Part shown: positions 1 through 6,479 of the stretch, piece by piece
Layout: each line of letters begins with the position of its first letter
Position numbering within the stretch: position 1 is the stretch's first letter
Assembly: GCA_913058395.1 (NCBI GenBank)
Contig: CAJXQI010000001.1
Location: 62,001 to 126,000, forward strand
DNA: 64,000 bases
From: an uncultured Colwellia sp.
GTDB lineage: Bacteria > Pseudomonadota > Gammaproteobacteria > Enterobacterales > Alteromonadaceae
Direction: 5' to 3'
Made by a program: the position numbers and the translations under genes
Notes under the pieces: model-generated
What the model was told of the DNA's origin: nothing
What the model saw: only the letters and a program-made list of their open reading frames with translations
Database searches by the model: none

Positions 1-1
1 A

Positions 2-76
2 GTAAAGCCTGAGTGTTCTCAAGTCGGAGGCACAACAATTAGTAGTGTTATTAGCACTAGGCAAGCACCTCAATAA
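2..76 (+). CDS. 3' end of an upstream cassette ORF (partial)
   Basis: The frame beginning at base 2 is open from the window edge to a TAA at 74-76 and gives about 24 residues. The stop lies 5 bases before an attC-like site, the usual place for a gene-cassette ORF to end. Nothing can be said of its function. The other two plus-strand frames stop early, which mildly supports this frame. A stretch this short could be open by chance. Confidence 0.35.
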   Translation, partial: VKPECSQVGGTTISSVISTRQAPQ

Positions 77-81
77 GGTGT

Positions 82-174
82 GTCTAACAAGCCAAGTGAG
101 ACTTATAACAGTTTGTTAGTCTCACTTGGATTACCATTTAGCAAATCATTAAAACCCTCACTTGGACGTTAGAA
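82..174 (+). repeat. attC-like integron recombination site
   Basis: GTCTAAC (82-88) matches the RYYYAAC R'' box and GTTAGA at 168-173 matches the R' box. Between them are arms carrying CAAGTGAG on the left and CTCACTTG on the right. An inner perfect 12-bp inverted repeat (CCAAGTGAGACT at 92-103 against 118-129) gives an alternative hairpin. Length (93 bp) and imperfect dyad symmetry fit attC sites, which IntI recognises as folded single strands. It closes the partial cassette to its left. Confidence 0.7.
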
Positions 175-259
175 TATAATTGAGTATTGGTAAAATAAAA
201 GGGTTTAAGGTGAAACTAAATAAGCTATGTAACATTAACTAAATAGAAATTATGAGACA

Positions 260-298
260 GACATTACTGAGAAGCCTTCATAATAAGCTGTAATATGT
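260..298 (+). repeat. attC right-half-like repeat, copy A
   Basis: A segment of about 38 bp, starting GACATTACTGAGAAG and ending with CATAATAAGCTGT, recurs at 2248-2285 with two substitutions and a one- or two-base length change near its end. Both copies end a few bases before a cassette ORF, where an attC right half would lie. No matching left half sits directly upstream, so this may be a remnant site. The stretch 175-259 shows no gene. Confidence 0.5.
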
Positions 299-311
299 AA
301 ACGGAGTTCAA

Positions 312-626
312 ATGGATATTGAAGTAACTCGTCCAAAACAATTTCTAGATAAAGTTAGGAATTACCATTTGTATGTCGATGGTAATAAGCTTACTAAAAT
401 TAAACCTAATTCAACTCAAATTATTTCAATTCCGTCTCATACTAAATTTATTGAAGCTAAAATTGACTGGCGTTCAAGCCCAAAGTTTTATCTGGACAAT
501 TATTCTTCAAAAAAACTTATCATTAAAAATAGCGTCAGTGGCGGTTTTTTAAAGGTATTAGTATTACCTTTGTACTATGTGATTTTCGCTAGAAGCAAGT
601 ATTTAACAATTAAGAATTGCGTATAA
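312..626 (+). CDS. Small membrane-tethered cassette protein, PEGA-like
   Basis: 104 residues. The N-terminal part (RPKQFLDKVRNYHLYVDG, then a run predicted as beta strands ending KIDW) resembles a widespread group of small bacterial proteins beginning with 'RP..F.D..R.Y.iyiDg', which look like a PEGA or beta-sandwich fold; this is from memory of the pattern, not a search. Residues 77-95 (GGFLKVLVLPLYYVIFARS) form one hydrophobic segment, so the protein probably sits at the inner membrane. The start ATG follows a GGAG motif (302-305). The stop overlaps an attC left half. Function unknown. Confidence 0.6.
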   Translation: MDIEVTRPKQFLDKVRNYHLYVDGNKLTKIKPNSTQIISIPSHTKFIEAKIDWRSSPKFYLDNYSSKKLIIKNSVSGGFLKVLVLPLYYVIFARSKYLTIKNCV

Positions 627-686
627 CAGGCTATTCAAGCGGGGTTAGTTTTGCTCTGCTACACAATATCAAAGCATGGAGTGCAA
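621..686 (+). repeat. Degenerate attC site (left half only clear)
   Basis: GTATAAC followed by AGGCTATTCAAGC resembles the left arm of the better sites at 3588 and 4136 (ATATAACAAgCCaatTcAAGC). A convincing right half ending in GTTA is not present before the next ORF. The site therefore looks decayed or truncated, and the two flanking ORFs may no longer be separable cassettes. Confidence 0.4.
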
Positions 687-1226
687 ATGAAAAAAATATA
701 TATAACGATAGTCCTTTCGTCAATGGTCTTGTCTTCTTGTGGTGGCACTGGAGGAAATGCAGCTACTGAAACCTCAAAAAGTGACTTTAAAGCAAAGTTA
801 TCTAATACGTCTTGGAAAAAAGCATGTTCTCCTTATAATAAGTTTTCAAGCGACGAGTTAAAAGGTGATTGGAACGTCAAGATTAAGCTGAGTATAGATT
901 CCTCGCTAAAATCTACTTACCGAACAGAGTACTTCCACCCAACTGATACTGAATGTGGCTCAATGATGTTTGATACGTTGGATATCTCAAAATTTGCTAT
1001 TACAGGTAAAGTAATAAGTGAAGAAAGTATTGAAGCTGATGGTTTAAATGAGACTTTTACTTATAATTCTGATAATCGAAATCTTCCGCCAAATTACACG
1101 TTAATTTATATTAATAGTGAAAAATTATATTTTGGCCAGAAGTCTGCTGAAAATCTTGGGAAAACGCTTGAAACAAGGCACTCTTCTATATCTCTTGATA
1201 ATTATTTCACGCAAATTGTAAATTAA
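687..1226 (+). CDS. Putative lipoprotein, cassette-borne
   Basis: The ATG at 687 is preceded by GGAG at 679-682; an in-frame TTG at 651 would add 12 residues ahead of the signal and is unlikely. The 179-residue product has a classical lipoprotein signal: MKK, a hydrophobic stretch, then LSSC with Cys18 as the lipidation site, followed by a Gly-rich linker. Asp or Asn at +2 is absent (Gly), so outer-membrane sorting is expected. No family was recognised in the mature part. It begins and ends at attC-like half sites. Confidence 0.6.
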   Translation: MKKIYITIVLSSMVLSSCGGTGGNAATETSKSDFKAKLSNTSWKKACSPYNKFSSDELKGDWNVKIKLSIDSSLKSTYRTEYFHPTDTECGSMMFDTLDISKFAITGKVISEESIEADGLNETFTYNSDNRNLPPNYTLIYINSEKLYFGQKSAENLGKTLETRHSSISLDNYFTQIVN

Positions 1227-1604
1227 AAATCTAACAAGAACTTCAAGTGAAAGGTAAGTTGGCTGTTCTCACTTTGTTTCGAGTTTTAGTTAACTATATG
1301 ATTGATTAAATGGTGGAGAGGAAGGGCTTAATGCTTCTTCCTAACCCAGTATTCGAAGTGACCCCCTCCTAGTACTATGGGAGTAAAGTATTTTTATTTT
1401 TTCTATGTACTGTTTCTAAAGGGCTATAAAGACTTTTATAATTAATTGGTTTAAAAATTAGTTTAGATTAGGTTTTAAGTTATTTCCTGCTAAATATTTC
1501 TAATTAATAATATAAATATTTGTTTCATCTTATTGAAAAGCATTCATAATACGTCGCCGAAAACTAGTAACCGTTAAATTTGATGGTTATTTAATAATTT
1601 AAAT
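1227..1604. other. Cassette-array spacer with an attC left half
   Basis: TCTAACAAGAACTTCAAG at 1231-1248 looks like an attC left arm, but no right half follows. There is a short imperfect hairpin around AGGAAGGGC...CTTCTTCCT (about 1318-1344) and another around CTCC...GGGAG near 1367-1384. From 1390 the sequence is very AT-rich and may hold the promoter of the following gene. No ORF was seen. Confidence 0.4.
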
Positions 1605-2243
1605 ATGGATATAAGATTGAGTATGAATAAAAGTATAATTGGGCTTGTTGCTGCATTAATAACTACGCCTGTATTCGCCGACACAGGTTTTTATGGCGAA
1701 TTATTGTTAGGAAACACAAATAATGAATCGAAAAGCAAAAGTGATGATGACTCAGTACAAGTTGAGTTAGAAGATCATATTAAACTTTCTGGAAGTAGTA
1801 CCTCTTACGCATTAAGAGGCGGTTATCAATTTAATGATAATTTCGCGATAGAATTATCCCACCATGTATATGGTGATGTTACTTATAAATATACCGATAG
1901 ATATGATGACACAATAAAAAATAAAATTGATTCAAACTCAAATAATATTGCTCTTAAAGGTATATGGCCAGTTACTGATGCTATTTCTTTGAATGCGCGT
2001 TTGGGTGCAGCTAATTGGGATTTCGATGTTGTTGCTACAGACTCTGCTTACCCTGATGAAGTTGAAAAATTTAGTGAAAGTGGAACTGATGTTTATTATG
2101 GAATTGGTGCTGAATATATTTTGAATGATAAAGTTAGCCTTGGTATAGAGTATTCTACTTTATCAATGAAATGGGGTTCAGGGGATATTGATGTTAAGCA
2201 TACCGTAGATAGTTTATCGTTAGTTTTACAAATGAAATTCTAG
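1605..2243 (+). CDS. Outer-membrane beta-barrel protein (OmpA/OMP_b-brl type)
   Basis: 212 residues. A signal peptide ends around PVFA-DTGF; alternating strands follow (YALRGGYQFNDNFAIELSHH; GIGAEYILNDKVSLGIEYS) and the chain ends in Phe, the C-terminal signature used by the Bam machinery. Size and pattern fit an eight-stranded opacity/OmpA-like barrel. An inner start at 1623 (MNKSIIGLV) gives a cleaner signal peptide and is equally likely; neither has a strong ribosome site. Unlike its neighbours it lacks a good attC on its left, yet an attC-like half follows its stop directly. Confidence 0.65.
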   Translation: MDIRLSMNKSIIGLVAALITTPVFADTGFYGELLLGNTNNESKSKSDDDSVQVELEDHIKLSGSSTSYALRGGYQFNDNFAIELSHHVYGDVTYKYTDRYDDTIKNKIDSNSNNIALKGIWPVTDAISLNARLGAANWDFDVVATDSAYPDEVEKFSESGTDVYYGIGAEYILNDKVSLGIEYSTLSMKWGSGDIDVKHTVDSLSLVLQMKF

Positions 2244-2247
2244 GGGC

Positions 2248-2285
2248 GACATTACTGAGAAGTCTCCATAATAAGCTGTTATGTT
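2248..2285 (+). repeat. attC right-half-like repeat, copy B
   Basis: Near-identical to the segment at 260-298. It starts five bases after the barrel gene stop and ends in GTTATGT, an acceptable R' box. It stands immediately before the glutaredoxin cassette, so it marks that cassette's left boundary. Confidence 0.5.
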
Positions 2286-2311
2286 TTTAATCTAAGCTAG
2301 GAGTGCTGTAA

Positions 2312-2626
2312 ATGAAGAAATGGATTTTCGTTGCTGTTCTTATACTGATAATTCAAAAATGGGATGTGATTACAGCTAAACCAATCAACCCTAATGCTCA
2401 GGTTGTACTTTATGCAACTTCATGGTGTAAGTACTGCAAAAAAGCAAGGCGCTTGCTAGATGATAATGGCGTTAAATATATCGAATATGACATTGAAGCT
2501 TCGCATGAAGGACTTGAAAAATATAATAAAATAGGCGGTAAAGGAATACCTGTTTTAGTAATAGACGGTGTGGTTTTAAATGGCTATAACCCTGAAAAAA
2601 TACTTAGTTTCTTAAGAAAAACATAA
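2312..2626 (+). CDS. Membrane-anchored or exported glutaredoxin-like protein
   Basis: 104 residues. An N-terminal hydrophobic segment (residues 4-15) precedes a glutaredoxin fold: beta strand VVLYATSWC, active site C39-K-Y-C42, helix, YIEYDIE, then GKGIPVLVIDG with the conserved cis-Pro, and NGYNPEKI. The anchor would put the thiol site outside the cytoplasm or tether it to the membrane, unusual for ordinary glutaredoxins. The CxxC motif indicates thiol-disulfide exchange; partner unknown. It is a single-gene cassette between 2248-2285 and the attC at 2621. Confidence 0.75.
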   Translation: MKKWIFVAVLILIIQKWDVITAKPINPNAQVVLYATSWCKYCKKARRLLDDNGVKYIEYDIEASHEGLEKYNKIGGKGIPVLVIDGVVLNGYNPEKILSFLRKT

Positions 2627-2724
2627 CAAGCATTTCAAGCGAGGCTGCTAATAGTTTGCTCGATTTCGCTTCACAGCACATTTTAGTCATCTACAATTTG
2701 CCCTTTAACCGGGCGCTATGTTTT
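2621..2724 (+). repeat. attC-like site
   Basis: ACATAACAAGC at the stop of the glutaredoxin ORF and CCGGGCGCTATGT at the right end form the outer arms. The centre carries the CACATTTTAG / CAaTTTgCC elements also present at 3588. About 104 bp long; the R' box departs by one base (GCTATGT) from the sites at 3208 and 2279. Confidence 0.6.
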
Positions 2725-2735
2725 AAGGGAATAAT

Positions 2736-3113
2736 ATGCATAAACTGGTAGTAACACTTTTTATTTTAATACTTTTTTCTTGTTTTCAAAATGAAGCACA
2801 TTCATTTGAAAGGGATAAATATAATCGTCTTGTAGATTCTGTTGCATTTAAATCTAAAGTATCCGGCACAACTTGGGAATACAATTGGAATGGTAGTAAG
2901 TTTATTTTTGGCTTTAAGCCTGACGGTAAAATATCAAAGCTAAAAGGTTGGTCTAAAGTTCAATGGACTGTTAACCAAAGAAATGAAGTTGTTCTAAACC
3001 ATGGTTCGAAAAAGATGTTCTTGTTTTTTAATGATAAAGGTACCTTTTTTAAAACGGTAGATTGGGATGGTCAGCGAGCAACAGGTAGACGAGTTTTTAA
3101 GGATGACATTTAA
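2736..3113 (+). CDS. Exported cassette protein of unknown function
   Basis: 125 residues with a signal peptide (MHKLVVTLFILILFSCF...AHS). The hydrophobic run ends LFSC, so a lipoprotein is possible, but cleavage after AHS also fits. The mature part is rich in Trp, Lys and aromatic residues (GTTWEYNWNG, GFKPDGKI, VQWTV), suggesting a small beta-barrel of lipocalin type. This fold guess rests on pattern only. The ATG follows AAGGGA (2725-2730). Bounded by attC sites on both sides. Confidence 0.6.
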   Translation: MHKLVVTLFILILFSCFQNEAHSFERDKYNRLVDSVAFKSKVSGTTWEYNWNGSKFIFGFKPDGKISKLKGWSKVQWTVNQRNEVVLNHGSKKMFLFFNDKGTFFKTVDWDGQRATGRRVFKDDI

Positions 3114-3114
3114 A

Positions 3115-3214
3115 ACATTACAAGCTGTTAAACAAGAACAAAAAACAGTTGGTTTTGCTCCTTCGTCGCTAATGTTAACCAACTATTTTATTGCCTGCTA
3201 ATAAGGCGTTATAT
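3115..3214 (+). repeat. attC-like site
   Basis: Left box ACATTAC (3115-3121) with AAGCTG; right box GTTATAT (3208-3214) preceded by AAGGC. The interior AACAGTTGGTTTTGCT...GTTAACCAACTATTT can pair (AGTTGGTT with AACCAACT) and is shared almost base for base with the site at 4136. About 100 bp. Confidence 0.75.
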
Positions 3215-3227
3215 GTAAAGGAAAGTT

Positions 3228-3581
3228 ATGTTAAAACGAATAGTTTTAAGCTCTATATTTATAGCCTCAACATTTTCAACGAAGGCGAAAAGTGATGAAT
3301 GTAATTTTGCAGGCATCTGGGATCACTCAGCTAAACCTGCAAAACTTTTTATTGATTTATCTAAAGGTGAAATCTCAGTTTATTCTCACGACTTAAATCC
3401 TGACTCTGTTGGTTTAGTTGTCTTAAAAAGTTTGAAAATTGCTTCTACGAAGTCTTCTTGGGATGCAAAAATGTATAGTGCAGCGGAAGATTCATTTGTC
3501 GATGTTCAAATAACGCCAAAAAGCTGTAATCAATTAAGTGTTGGGTTTCAAGGCGAAGAAGTATTAGGGCTAGTTAGGTAA
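3228..3581 (+). CDS. Exported cassette protein of unknown function
   Basis: 117 residues. The signal peptide is MLKRIVLSSIFIASTFSTKAKS. The mature protein has two cysteines (DECNF, KSCNQ) that could form a disulfide, and reads as an all-beta domain (AGIWDHSAKPAKLFIDLSKGEISVYS). The ATG follows AAAGGAAAG. No family recognised. It is a one-gene cassette between the attC sites at 3115 and 3588. Confidence 0.6.
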   Translation: MLKRIVLSSIFIASTFSTKAKSDECNFAGIWDHSAKPAKLFIDLSKGEISVYSHDLNPDSVGLVVLKSLKIASTKSSWDAKMYSAAEDSFVDVQITPKSCNQLSVGFQGEEVLGLVR

Positions 3582-3587
3582 ATTTAC

Positions 3588-3686
3588 ATATAACAAGCCA
3601 ATTAAGCTGGACTAAAAACACTTTACTGTTTCGTTCCTCAACATTTTAGCCAACAATTATTTTCCTCTTAATCGGGGGATATTTTA
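3588..3686 (+). repeat. attC-like site
   Basis: Left arm ATATAACAAGCCAATTAAGC; the interior has AGCCAACAATTATTT; right arm CTTAATCGGGGGATATT. CTTAA in the right arm pairs with TTAAG in the left. The R' box is degenerate (GGATATT in place of GTTATAT). About 99 bp. Confidence 0.6.
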
Positions 3687-3696
3687 AGGAAATTCT

Positions 3697-4134
3697 GTGG
3701 AAGTATCACTTCGCCAAGTGTCAAAAGAAAATTATGAAGAAGTTTGTGAGCTCGATGTCACAAAAGAACAAGAAGACTTTGTGGCTTGTAATATGTGGTC
3801 AATAGTTGAGTCAAAGTACAATGAAGGGTATGAAACCAGAGTTATTTATATGAAAGAAGAGCCTGTAGGCTTTTTTATGTGGGTGAAAGAATCTAGCATT
3901 AAAGTTTCCATTTGGCGATTTATGGTCGATAAAAACCATCAACAAAAATCAATAGGACGTGTCGCACTTAACCTAGCCTTGGCGGAAATAAGAAAAGTAC
4001 CAGATTTACAAGAAATCGAAATTTGTTATAACCCCAAAAATCCTGTCGCTAAAGAGTTTTATGCTAGCTTTGGCTTTTCTGAAGTCGGTATGGATGAAGA
4101 CGATGAAGATATGCTGGCTGTTATTAAACTTTAA
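3697..4134 (+). CDS. GNAT-family N-acetyltransferase, cassette-borne
   Basis: 145 residues starting at GTG, with AAGGA six bases upstream. The order of elements fits GNAT enzymes: VSLRQVSKENYEEVCEL, a central strand VIYMKEEPVGFFMWV, then WRFMVDKNHQQKSIGRVALNLAL, which is motif A with an acetyl-CoA pyrophosphate loop Q-x-x-S-I-G-R, and EIEICYNPKNPVAKEFYASFGF, the motif B region typical of the family. Acetyltransferases of this sort are common integron cargo. The substrate cannot be read from the sequence. Last complete cassette before the array ends. Confidence 0.8.
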   Translation: MEVSLRQVSKENYEEVCELDVTKEQEDFVACNMWSIVESKYNEGYETRVIYMKEEPVGFFMWVKESSIKVSIWRFMVDKNHQQKSIGRVALNLALAEIRKVPDLQEIEICYNPKNPVAKEFYASFGFSEVGMDEDDEDMLAVIKL

Positions 4135-4135
4135 A

Positions 4136-4238
4136 ATATAACAAACCATTCAAGCTGGACAAAAAAAACAGTTGGTTTTGCTGCCGCGTTGCTAATTTTA
4201 ACCAACTATTTCTGGGGCGCCATTCATGGCTGATATAT
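4136..4238 (+). repeat. attC-like site, end of array
   Basis: Left arm ATATAACAAACCATTCAAGC; interior AACAGTTGGTTTTGCT...TTAACCAACTATTT as in 3115-3214; right arm GGGGCGCCATTCATGGCTG followed by ATATAT rather than a proper GTTA box. The right end looks eroded, which fits the last attC of an array. The phage-type integrase gene follows 37 bases later on the other strand. Confidence 0.6.
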
Positions 4239-4275
4239 CAACCTTACTGCATATTAAGCGTGATTAAGTGTAATC

Positions 4276-5343
4276 TCATAATAATTTCTCATGTAATTTA
4301 TGTGGAAATAATTGAGTGTAAACTTGCCACAAAATATTTAAATTCCTATGACCAGTAACTTGGGCTACTTCTTCAATGGAGTAGCCTTGCTCAAATAGCC
4401 TACTTGCTCCTTCACGTCTTAAATCGTGATACCTTAAATCTTCAATACCCAATTCATTACGTACACGTTGAAAGCCAACACTTACGCTTTGGGATTTATA
4501 AGGGAATATGAACTCACAATTTTGGGGTTGTCTAATAGCAATGTTAAATGATTCACCTAATAACGGTGCAATCATGTGATTGCCTTTCTTTTTTCTTGGG
4601 TCTTTTCTATCTCGAATCAAAATTGTTTTATGTTCTCGGTTTAAGTCCTCCCATCTTAATCCACATACTTCGCCAATTCGCATGCAAGATAAAATGCTAA
4701 AGTCTAATATGTCATTGTATGGAATTCTTACCTTTCCATTGGCTTTTTGGCCTTCTCTAATTGTGAGGGCCGCTTTTAGTTTATCTATTTCTATAAGAGT
4801 AGGCCGTCTAGTTCTTTTCTCACTTTTTCCTATTAACTTCATATCAATCAATGTAGGTAAGGCTTCGTCAAAAATTTGATAATTGGCTTCAATCTCAAAT
4901 ACTGGATAGGCTTTTTTCATGACTGCACGCAAATATGACATGTCGTGATAAATGGTTGCCGGTTTTGTTCCTGATTCAATACGTTCTTTACAGTGTCTGA
5001 TTAAATCACTGGTTTTTAGCTTGTTACTTTGTGTTTTAGCAATGTCACAGTCTCGGAGCATTTGGATTACGTAACGTTTAGTTCTACCTGTGCTACCCCA
5101 TAAGTGCTCATCTTCAATATATAGGTCTATTAAGTTACCAATCGATATTGCTTTTTTAATTCCAATTTCTTCGTTTTCAATTTCTTGGACGCGTTTTTTG
5201 CCGTAAATTCGTGCTAATTCTTTTTTACGGAATGTTTTAGATTCTCGGTGTATAATCGCATTGTTTTTTTTAACAACGATTCCACAGCGGTAACTGAAGT
5301 CACCATTAGCTTTGGCGCGTTTTGTAATTGTGAATGATGCCAT
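4276..5343 (-). CDS. Phage-type tyrosine recombinase at the dusA locus
   Basis: The likely start is the ATG at 5343 (MASFTITKRAKANG), with TAGGA eight to nine bases upstream; the frame stays open to 5418 but that ATG has no ribosome site. The product is 355 residues. N-terminal arm-binding and SAM-like core regions come first, then the catalytic domain. Numbered from the longer frame, catalytic residues are Arg247 (SCMRIGEVCGLRW), His331 and Arg334 (HDLRREGASRLF), His357 (TGHRN) and nucleophile Tyr367 (WQVYTQL), so it looks active. It lacks the extra IntI helix and is not an integron integrase. It is divergent from dusA, a recognised insertion hotspot for islands with this integrase type. Confidence 0.85.
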   Translation of the reverse strand: MASFTITKRAKANGDFSYRCGIVVKKNNAIIHRESKTFRKKELARIYGKKRVQEIENEEIGIKKAISIGNLIDLYIEDEHLWGSTGRTKRYVIQMLRDCDIAKTQSNKLKTSDLIRHCKERIESGTKPATIYHDMSYLRAVMKKAYPVFEIEANYQIFDEALPTLIDMKLIGKSEKRTRRPTLIEIDKLKAALTIREGQKANGKVRIPYNDILDFSILSCMRIGEVCGLRWEDLNREHKTILIRDRKDPRKKKGNHMIAPLLGESFNIAIRQPQNCEFIFPYKSQSVSVGFQRVRNELGIEDLRYHDLRREGASRLFEQGYSIEEVAQVTGHRNLNILWQVYTQLFPHKLHEKLL

Positions 5344-5360
5344 TAGAAATCCTACTCTTT

Positions 5361-5381
5361 TATGGTGTACATATGGTGTAC
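5361..5381. promoter_or_regulatory. Direct repeat before the integrase gene, possible operator
   Basis: TATGGTGTAC occurs twice, at 5361-5370 and 5372-5381, one base apart. It sits 18-38 bases upstream of the preferred integrase start, between the two divergent genes. Tandem 10-bp repeats one helical turn apart suit binding of a small regulator or excisionase. The role is inferred. Confidence 0.35.
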
Positions 5382-5453
5382 CATAGATCGAAATTGAAGG
5401 TAACTCAACGCAACTCATGGTAATTTATACAGTAGTTATTGTAAGGTAATAAA

Positions 5454-6479
5454 GTGTCTAGCCCAGTAAAACCAATAAATTCAACAAATTCAATAAGTCA
5501 TAAGCTTTCCATTGCACCCATGCTCGATTGGACTGATCGTCATTGTCGTTATTTTTATCGTGTAATGTCGAAGCACACTGTGTTGTATACCGAAATGGTA
5601 ACCACAGGGGCAATTCTATTTGGCAAAGGTAATTACCTTGAATATAACCAGCAAGAACATCCGGTTGTGTTGCAGTTAGGTGGTAGCGATGTAAAAGCGA
5701 TGACTGAATGTGCAAAAATTGCTGAGGAACAAGGTTATGACGAAATTAATATTAATGTTGGTTGTCCGTCTGACCGTGTGCAAAATGGTATGTTTGGCGC
5801 TTGTTTGATGGCTGAACCACAGCTCGTCGCTGATTGTGTATCGAGTATGCAAAATGCTACTAGTATTCCTACTACGGTTAAGTCTCGTATTGGTATTGAT
5901 GATTTAGACAGTTATGAGTTTTTGCATAAATTTATGACGACGGTAAGCGCCGCAGGTTGCCAGCATTTTATTATTCATGCGCGCAAGGCGTGGTTAAGTG
6001 GTTTAAGCCCTAAGCAGAACCGAGATATTCCGCCGTTGGACTATCAACGTGTTTATCAAATTAAACAAGACTTCCCAGAGACCGAAATTTCAATCAATGG
6101 CGGTATAAAAAGCTTTATTGAAGCGAATGAGCATATGCAGCACATTGATGGCGTGATGATCGGCCGTGAGGTTTATCAGAACCCATATATGCTAGTAGAG
6201 GCTGACAATGCTATTTGGCAAGCGAATGAGTCGGTTAAATCACGACAAGCGGTGATTAATGAGATGGTGCCATATATTGATTATCACGTTGCTAATGGTG
6301 GTCGTGCATGGCATGTCATAAGACACATGCTAGGTTTATGTAATGGCTTAGCGGGTGCAAAGCAGTTCCGTCGCTTTTTAAGTGAAAACTGTAGCGGTCA
6401 AGTAGTGTCAGGCGATATTCTGCAACAAGCCTTTGCAAGAGTAATACAGCTAAACCCTGATTTAAACTTAGCTGTGTAA
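5454..6479 (+). CDS. dusA: tRNA-dihydrouridine synthase A
   Basis: 341 residues, GTG start with AAGG eight bases upstream. DusA is an FMN enzyme that reduces U20/U20a in the tRNA D-loop. Visible marks: IAPMLDWTDRHCR (residues 20-32), NVGCPSDRVQ with Cys104 in the conserved GCPS motif, GACLMA, KSRIGIDD, HARKAW, then SINGGI and MIGREVYQNP for phosphate binding. The first 18 residues are poor in complexity (NSTNSIS) and differ from the usual short N-terminus, as expected if integration next to the start has remodelled the 5' end. The integrase gene on the other strand begins about 110 bases upstream. Confidence 0.95.
   Translation: MSSPVKPINSTNSISHKLSIAPMLDWTDRHCRYFYRVMSKHTVLYTEMVTTGAILFGKGNYLEYNQQEHPVVLQLGGSDVKAMTECAKIAEEQGYDEININVGCPSDRVQNGMFGACLMAEPQLVADCVSSMQNATSIPTTVKSRIGIDDLDSYEFLHKFMTTVSAAGCQHFIIHARKAWLSGLSPKQNRDIPPLDYQRVYQIKQDFPETEISINGGIKSFIEANEHMQHIDGVMIGREVYQNPYMLVEADNAIWQANESVKSRQAVINEMVPYIDYHVANGGRAWHVIRHMLGLCNGLAGAKQFRRFLSENCSGQVVSGDILQQAFARVIQLNPDLNLAV

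Follow-up and report, generated by a model that had tools for sequence, protein, structure and literature searches.

The standard picture of an integron has one attI site beside one gene for the integron integrase (IntI), intI. Clusters of attC sites lacking integron integrases (CALINs) are usually seen as degraded integrons (PMC9024848), and off-locus CALINs occur in about half of Xanthomonas genomes (PMC12444791). IntI also inserts cassettes outside att sites, at non-classical sites termed attG, according to the account of Loot et al. 2024 given in PMC12444791 and PMC11023631. We describe here a cassette array at the left end of a 64,000-bp stretch of DNA (the window; positions C1:62001-126000) from the draft assembly (43 contigs, 4.39 Mb; GCA_913058395.1) of a Colwellia-like member of the Alteromonadales. 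The array consists of three tandem modules, each headed by a copy of attI, within a relict dusA-integrase island. We lean towards reading it as a fossil piece of a "distributed integron," in which attI was copied away from intI and loaded in trans.

Orphan attI copies were located with a sequence-only model trained on 10 dispersed elements, from which IntI-linked sites were excluded. Three lie in or beside the window.

C1:61530-61623 (window -470 to -377): orphan attI copy 1, the fullest, 377 bp left of the window
226-291, + strand: orphan attI copy 2, 3' part, heading module 2 (42 bits, E = 2.6e-11; not attC by the attC model)
2182-2281, + strand: orphan attI copy 3, heading module 3 (34.2 bits, E = 6.9e-9)

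The modules run from the off-window attI to the attC at 82, from the attI at 226 to degraded sites, and from the attI at 2240 to the attC at 4136. The match to copy 3 overlaps an open reading frame (ORF) at 1623-2243, which it follows without a detectable attC; elsewhere attI follows a normal attC. Its conserved 3' core spans 2240-2281, with the exact core ATAATAAGCTGTTA at C1:64268-64281. The initial annotation had taken elements at 260 and 2248 for partial attC sites, an assignment rejected because both are negative with the attC model and lie in the attI matches at 226-291 and 2182-2281. Each is a copy of a longer element whose end reads ...CATAATAAGCTGTTA (TAA at 260), and each sits directly upstream of a cassette ORF. 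What had been described as the tail of an integron cassette array is indeed an attC array, with two further attI 3' ends inside it. A 5' fragment of the attI unit that lacks the core lies 9 kb left of the window, at C1:52549-52612 (window -9452 to -9389).

The dispersed elements are copies of a genuine attI region, because the model, trained without IntI-linked sites, finds the IntI-adjacent attI of two congeners. Its matches there fall in the interval that separates IntI from the first cassette: C4:3565-3656 in G007 (IntI at 3910-4851, 59.5 bits) and C29:211997-212088 in G013 (IntI at 210802-211743, 65 bits), both 254 bp from intI and correctly oriented. These matches led us to drop an interpretation of the element as nothing more than a repeat or a miniature inverted-repeat transposable element. 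The two enzymes, designated type C, share 94% identity with one another and 40-45% with the type A and B enzymes. At the other IntI loci the attI model gave zero matches, as expected of an attI that serves a single IntI type; in congeners, the attI linked to IntI ends ...TCATAATAAGCTGTTA in type A and ...TCTAATAARCTGTTA in type B. A near-perfect palindrome, TTACTGAGANNTCTCAGTAA, occurs in two copies before the type C attI core (L262 and L263, in the intI-attI gap, and upstream of orphans), and the core contains a third half-copy; these palindromes are possibly accessory sites for IntI or a regulator.

Across the genus (17 genomes, the window genome and 16 congeners), the attI model has matches in every genome, 1 to 15 each, of which the weakest are doubtful. 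The exact core ATAATAARCTGTTA occurs 49 times, compared with 4 times for a reversed control, and a few of the 49 (L308, L310, and L314) look like chance. Among 50 orphan attI copies (types A, C, and variants), 43 have a correctly oriented attC within 2 kb downstream (median, 456 bp), none has one in the wrong orientation, and 7 have none. In genome G015, where the type A IntI is intact, seven orphan copies were sampled on other contigs or loci; they match the genome's own attI region at 89-95% identity, and each precedes a different sequence. One further copy was seen besides these. G002 has four type A orphan copies. In G001, whose genome is closed, the only intI is of type B; its orphans number at least 10 (four type A, six type C), and none is closer than ~0.45 Mb to intI. 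G014 holds three copies of one integron head (L283, L287, and L294), with intI intact, truncated, and broken, resembling stages of intI loss.

No integron integrase was found over cutoff in the whole 43-contig draft with the TIGR02249 profile, the best stray match scoring 28.9 bits, and tblastn of the 3 kb upstream of each window attI was empty for intI. The earlier remark that no IntI is in view thus holds for the whole draft. An intI with its IntI-specific domain adjoining attI, as a complete integron has, is accordingly missing from the window in this draft assembly, while an attI heading the array is present at C1:61530 and at window positions 226 and 2182. Of the intI and attI expected to the left of the window, only attI (copy 1) is there. 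All 16 congeners have intI at E <= 1e-30, 15 of them over the family cutoff.

The attC sites were identified with a covariance model of the bottom strand, built from 39 attC sites in 20 IntI-adjacent arrays fetched from elsewhere in the order; the training set comprised IntI-bearing relatives only, with zero sequences from the window genome. The model was adopted because a simple R''/R' regular expression with folding recovered only site 82, the others carrying core changes. We know of no attC family in Rfam, and an Rfam search of the window gave zero matches. Searched over 144 kb in total, the window region yielded five attC sites, all in the same orientation with their cassettes on the + strand (E = 7.8e-7 to 4.1e-16); the next match has an E value of 0.92. 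Two further sites are degraded.

82-174, + strand: attC 1 (36.9 bits, E = 7.8e-7), both conserved triplets intact (GTCTAAC ... GTTAGAA)
618-665, + strand: truncated attC-like left half (GTATAACAGGCTATTCAAGCGGGG...), seen by eye, not detected by the model
1229-1322, + strand: degenerate attC (10.6 bits, E = 0.54 in 8 kb with filters off)
2621-2721, + strand: attC (55.6 bits, E = 7.7e-12), R' core GTT changed to GCT
3115-3214, + strand: attC (71.5 bits, E = 4.1e-16), R'' core AAC changed to TAC
3588-3684, + strand: attC (44.9 bits, E = 5.8e-9), R' core GTT changed to GAT
4136-4238, + strand: attC, last of the array (40.1 bits, E = 1.1e-7), R' core GTT changed to GAT

A covariance search of the kind proposed in the initial annotation recovered all five of the attC-like sites named there (82, 2621, 3115, 3588, and 4136), at E <= 7.8e-7. 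The inner block reported to be shared by the sites is real and is the usual attC inner stem of this order. Of the remaining partial sites, 1231 is the degenerate attC, and 621 is attC-like by eye and negative with the model. Five sites in one cluster, called by our own model and not by that of IntegronFinder, exceed the two attC sites that define a CALIN, and no integron integrase lies nearby. With cores read by eye, only site 82 keeps both triplets. The array looks old and fossil, because the other four of the five sites have lost a conserved core triplet. The whole window genome holds at least ~60 attC sites on over a dozen contigs, and at least 39 outside the window outscore the best site in it (71.5 bits); these genome-wide counts are lower bounds, with 150 of ~2,300 candidates scored.

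Eight cassette-type ORFs were counted, including one that starts at -334. Pfam assigns three of them, and five match no family; the initial annotation had counted six, four of them without a family.

1-76, + strand: 3' end of the first cassette ORF (136 aa, start at window -334), no family, headed by the off-window attI
312-626, + strand: cassette ORF, 104 aa, no family
672-1226, + strand: cassette ORF, 184 aa, lipobox-like N terminus, no family
1623-2243, + strand: OmpA-like outer-membrane beta-barrel ORF (OMP_b-brl / OmpA_membrane; Pfam E = 7.7e-18), no attC at its end
2312-2626, + strand: cassette ORF, glutaredoxin with an N-terminal hydrophobic segment (Pfam E = 2.5e-15)
2736-3113, + strand: cassette ORF, 125 aa, no family
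3228-3581, + strand: cassette ORF, 117 aa, no family
3697-4134, + strand: cassette ORF, GNAT acetyltransferase (Pfam E = 1.3e-9)

The dispersed attI units have sharp limits. At unrelated loci, identity between type C orphans reaches 88% within the unit, and outside it they are unrelated; homology runs from about -255 to -290 on the left to G^TTA on the right, beyond which the cassettes differ from one another. Compared with IntI-linked attI, they are homologous to about -185, have the palindromes and a promoter-like stretch in common with it, and lack both the LexA-box-like CTGTATTTATATACAG and intI. Type A copies retain the LexA box, and their left ends fall at -226 to -359, around the intI 5' end (about -259). 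A fixed left end of units at the intI 5' end was considered and set aside, being true of some type A copies only; the type C left end differs. The sequences support copying of type A units within genomes, because type A orphans cluster by genome with the attI of the resident integron: the unit tree has 5 label changes, compared with a mean of 10.8 after shuffling, and 0 of 20,000 shuffles were as low. Several attI copies stand in tandem in single arrays (L194 and L215), and because each lies ~270-290 bp past the preceding attC, the attI unit may travel inside cassettes. For the type A orphan array at L297, relatives without the array were found, but the region is mosaic and gave no exact junction. 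A terminator-like dispersed repeat (TTTCAAnGAACCTGACCCCGCAGGTTTTT) occurs at L269, L270, L272, L295, L300, L303, and L305 and abuts the left end of several attI units.

To the right, the array stops at a tyrosine integrase gene next to dusA, a context that the initial annotation of the array did not mention.

4276-5418, - strand: dusA-associated tyrosine integrase (PF00589, E = 2.9e-21; R-H-R-H-Y pentad readable), 3' end toward the array
5454-6479, + strand: dusA, right end of the island (NF008774, 514 bits)

The integrase, classed as dusA-associated by its position (PMC4482086), is intact, lies beside the dusA 5' end, and belongs to a family that adjoins dusA in most named relatives. The N-terminal extension of dusA is common only to relatives that have or had the island. 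About 6.8 kb at this locus is an insertion, because the gene at window -1903 to -1342 has its counterpart 231 bp from dusA at the unoccupied site in G012 and G013. Neither attL nor a second copy of the dusA 5' site was found in the 62 kb to the left, and because no attL was found there, the window copy of the island is probably immobile. In G007, the region upstream of the corresponding dusA holds at least 14 attC sites, four or five attI copies, and an integrase remnant; G014 has an attI and an integrase remnant. At the Colwellia loci L063, L075, and L081, both attC and attI adjoin this integrase family. At L063 and L081 (Colwellia DT_20 and TT2012), two attI-headed arrays flank the dusA-type integrase, one on each side, and at L081 a second integrase fragment follows, which suggests stacked islands. 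Where the dusA-type integrase gene ends at L081:11059-11153 and at L072:11056-11147, its stop codon (TAAC) overlaps the R' box of a site that is attC or attC-like (an attC at L081), an arrangement that cassette insertion exactly at the integrase 3' end would produce.

On the distributed-integron reading, many chromosomal sites would have received copies of the resident integron's attI region that lacked a working intI, by a mechanism that we infer. Each orphan attI would then be a docking site at which an IntI encoded elsewhere loads cassettes, and such loading in trans, which we judge rather probable from sequence comparison, would give many small attI-headed arrays per genome. In the window, three such modules would stand in tandem inside the relict dusA-integrase island, in an array that has probably become largely inert since four of its five attC sites lost a core triplet. 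More broadly, integrons may be polycentric, the attI platform duplicating without intI, one IntI loading all copies in trans, and many CALINs being satellite docking sites, not decayed integrons; on this generalization we hold the balance to be even. Several points weigh against a distributed integron. Type C IntI was recognized in only 2 of the 17 genomes, so that a cognate enzyme now seems to be absent for most type C orphans. A gap in the draft could hide an intI of the window genome, because several of its arrays stop at contig ends. On the left, type A copies end at different points (-226 to -359), with no single fixed end, and intI 5' fragments remain at a few orphans (G001_e, L302, and L303), which also fits plain loss of intI. 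No recombination was observed, and sequence alone cannot show it.

The main rival holds that the orphan arrays are remains of complete integrons (intI, attI, and array) that arose by duplication or acquisition and whose intI was later deleted, with no loading in trans now. The intI 5' remnants just listed lie upstream of their orphans as this would predict, further integron-head copies in G014 have a truncated or broken intI, and CALINs in general are regarded as degraded integrons (PMC9024848). We nevertheless consider this account doubtful, if a serious one: apart from G001_e, no intI remnant lies within 3 kb upstream of the tested type C orphans (the one other match, 1.4 kb from G013_d, is an unrelated recombinase-like sequence), type A copies end in a narrow zone at the intI 5' end and not randomly through the gene, and orphans head tandem cassettes within single arrays (L194, L215, and the window).

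Two other explanations concern where cassettes insert and what carries them. The array could be passenger cargo of a dusA-specific genomic island moved by its own integrase. The intact integrase abuts both array and dusA; in G007, G014, G020, and the named Colwellia loci L063, L075, and L081, members or remnants of this integrase family have attC, attI, or both next to them; and relatives have the unoccupied site. Cargo status is true of the local context but leaves the attI copies unexplained, dusA is distant from most orphan attI of the genus, and no attL was found to the left of the window copy, so that we regard this as a highly improbable account of the array. Least probable of all is an ordinary CALIN without attI, in which IntI inserted cassettes at attG sites and the attI-like motif is a preferred attG. 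The attG insertions reported in Loot et al. 2024, as cited in PMC12444791 and PMC11023631, and the off-locus CALINs of Xanthomonas (PMC12444791) speak for it; the motif, however, is no short target but extends over 230-380 bp that are homologous to the IntI-linked attI region or between orphans, with abrupt limits at both sides, and type A units cluster by genome.

If attI does multiply on its own and is served in trans, a single locus would no longer confine the capture and expression of cassettes, many CALINs would have a different origin, and searches for attI would have to extend beyond the surroundings of intI. Loading in trans is directly testable in G001 (closed, one intI, ten orphan attI) and G015 (intact cognate IntI, seven extra copies). 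In the literature covered, which leaves out most subscription journals, we came across no description of attI that is orphan, multiple, or dispersed.

Of the described systems, CALINs (IntegronFinder, PMC9024848) resemble the window in having at least two attC sites, one-gene cassettes, and no intI nearby; they are defined by attC alone, whereas the arrays here are headed by attI copies with their adjoining region, at many places per genome. The sedentary chromosomal integron of Alteromonadales (IntI, attI, and array) has the same attC family, attI core, and cassette boundary (G^TTA), but the orphan loci lack intI, and several attI occur per genome, also in tandem within one array. Delta-attI-type cassettes of class 1 and 2 integrons (PMC12901181) likewise place attI inside an array, where it is recombined by IntI; there, short attI1 or attI2 fragments replace attC at the cassette 3' end, whereas here whole attI regions head modules and are dispersed on the chromosome. 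As in the dusA-associated islands described by Farrugia et al. 2015 (PMC4482086), the integrase lies by the dusA 5' end and the dusA N terminus is altered; the window island differs in being a small relict (~6.8 kb to the nearest conserved gene) with no attL found and an attI-headed array as its cargo.

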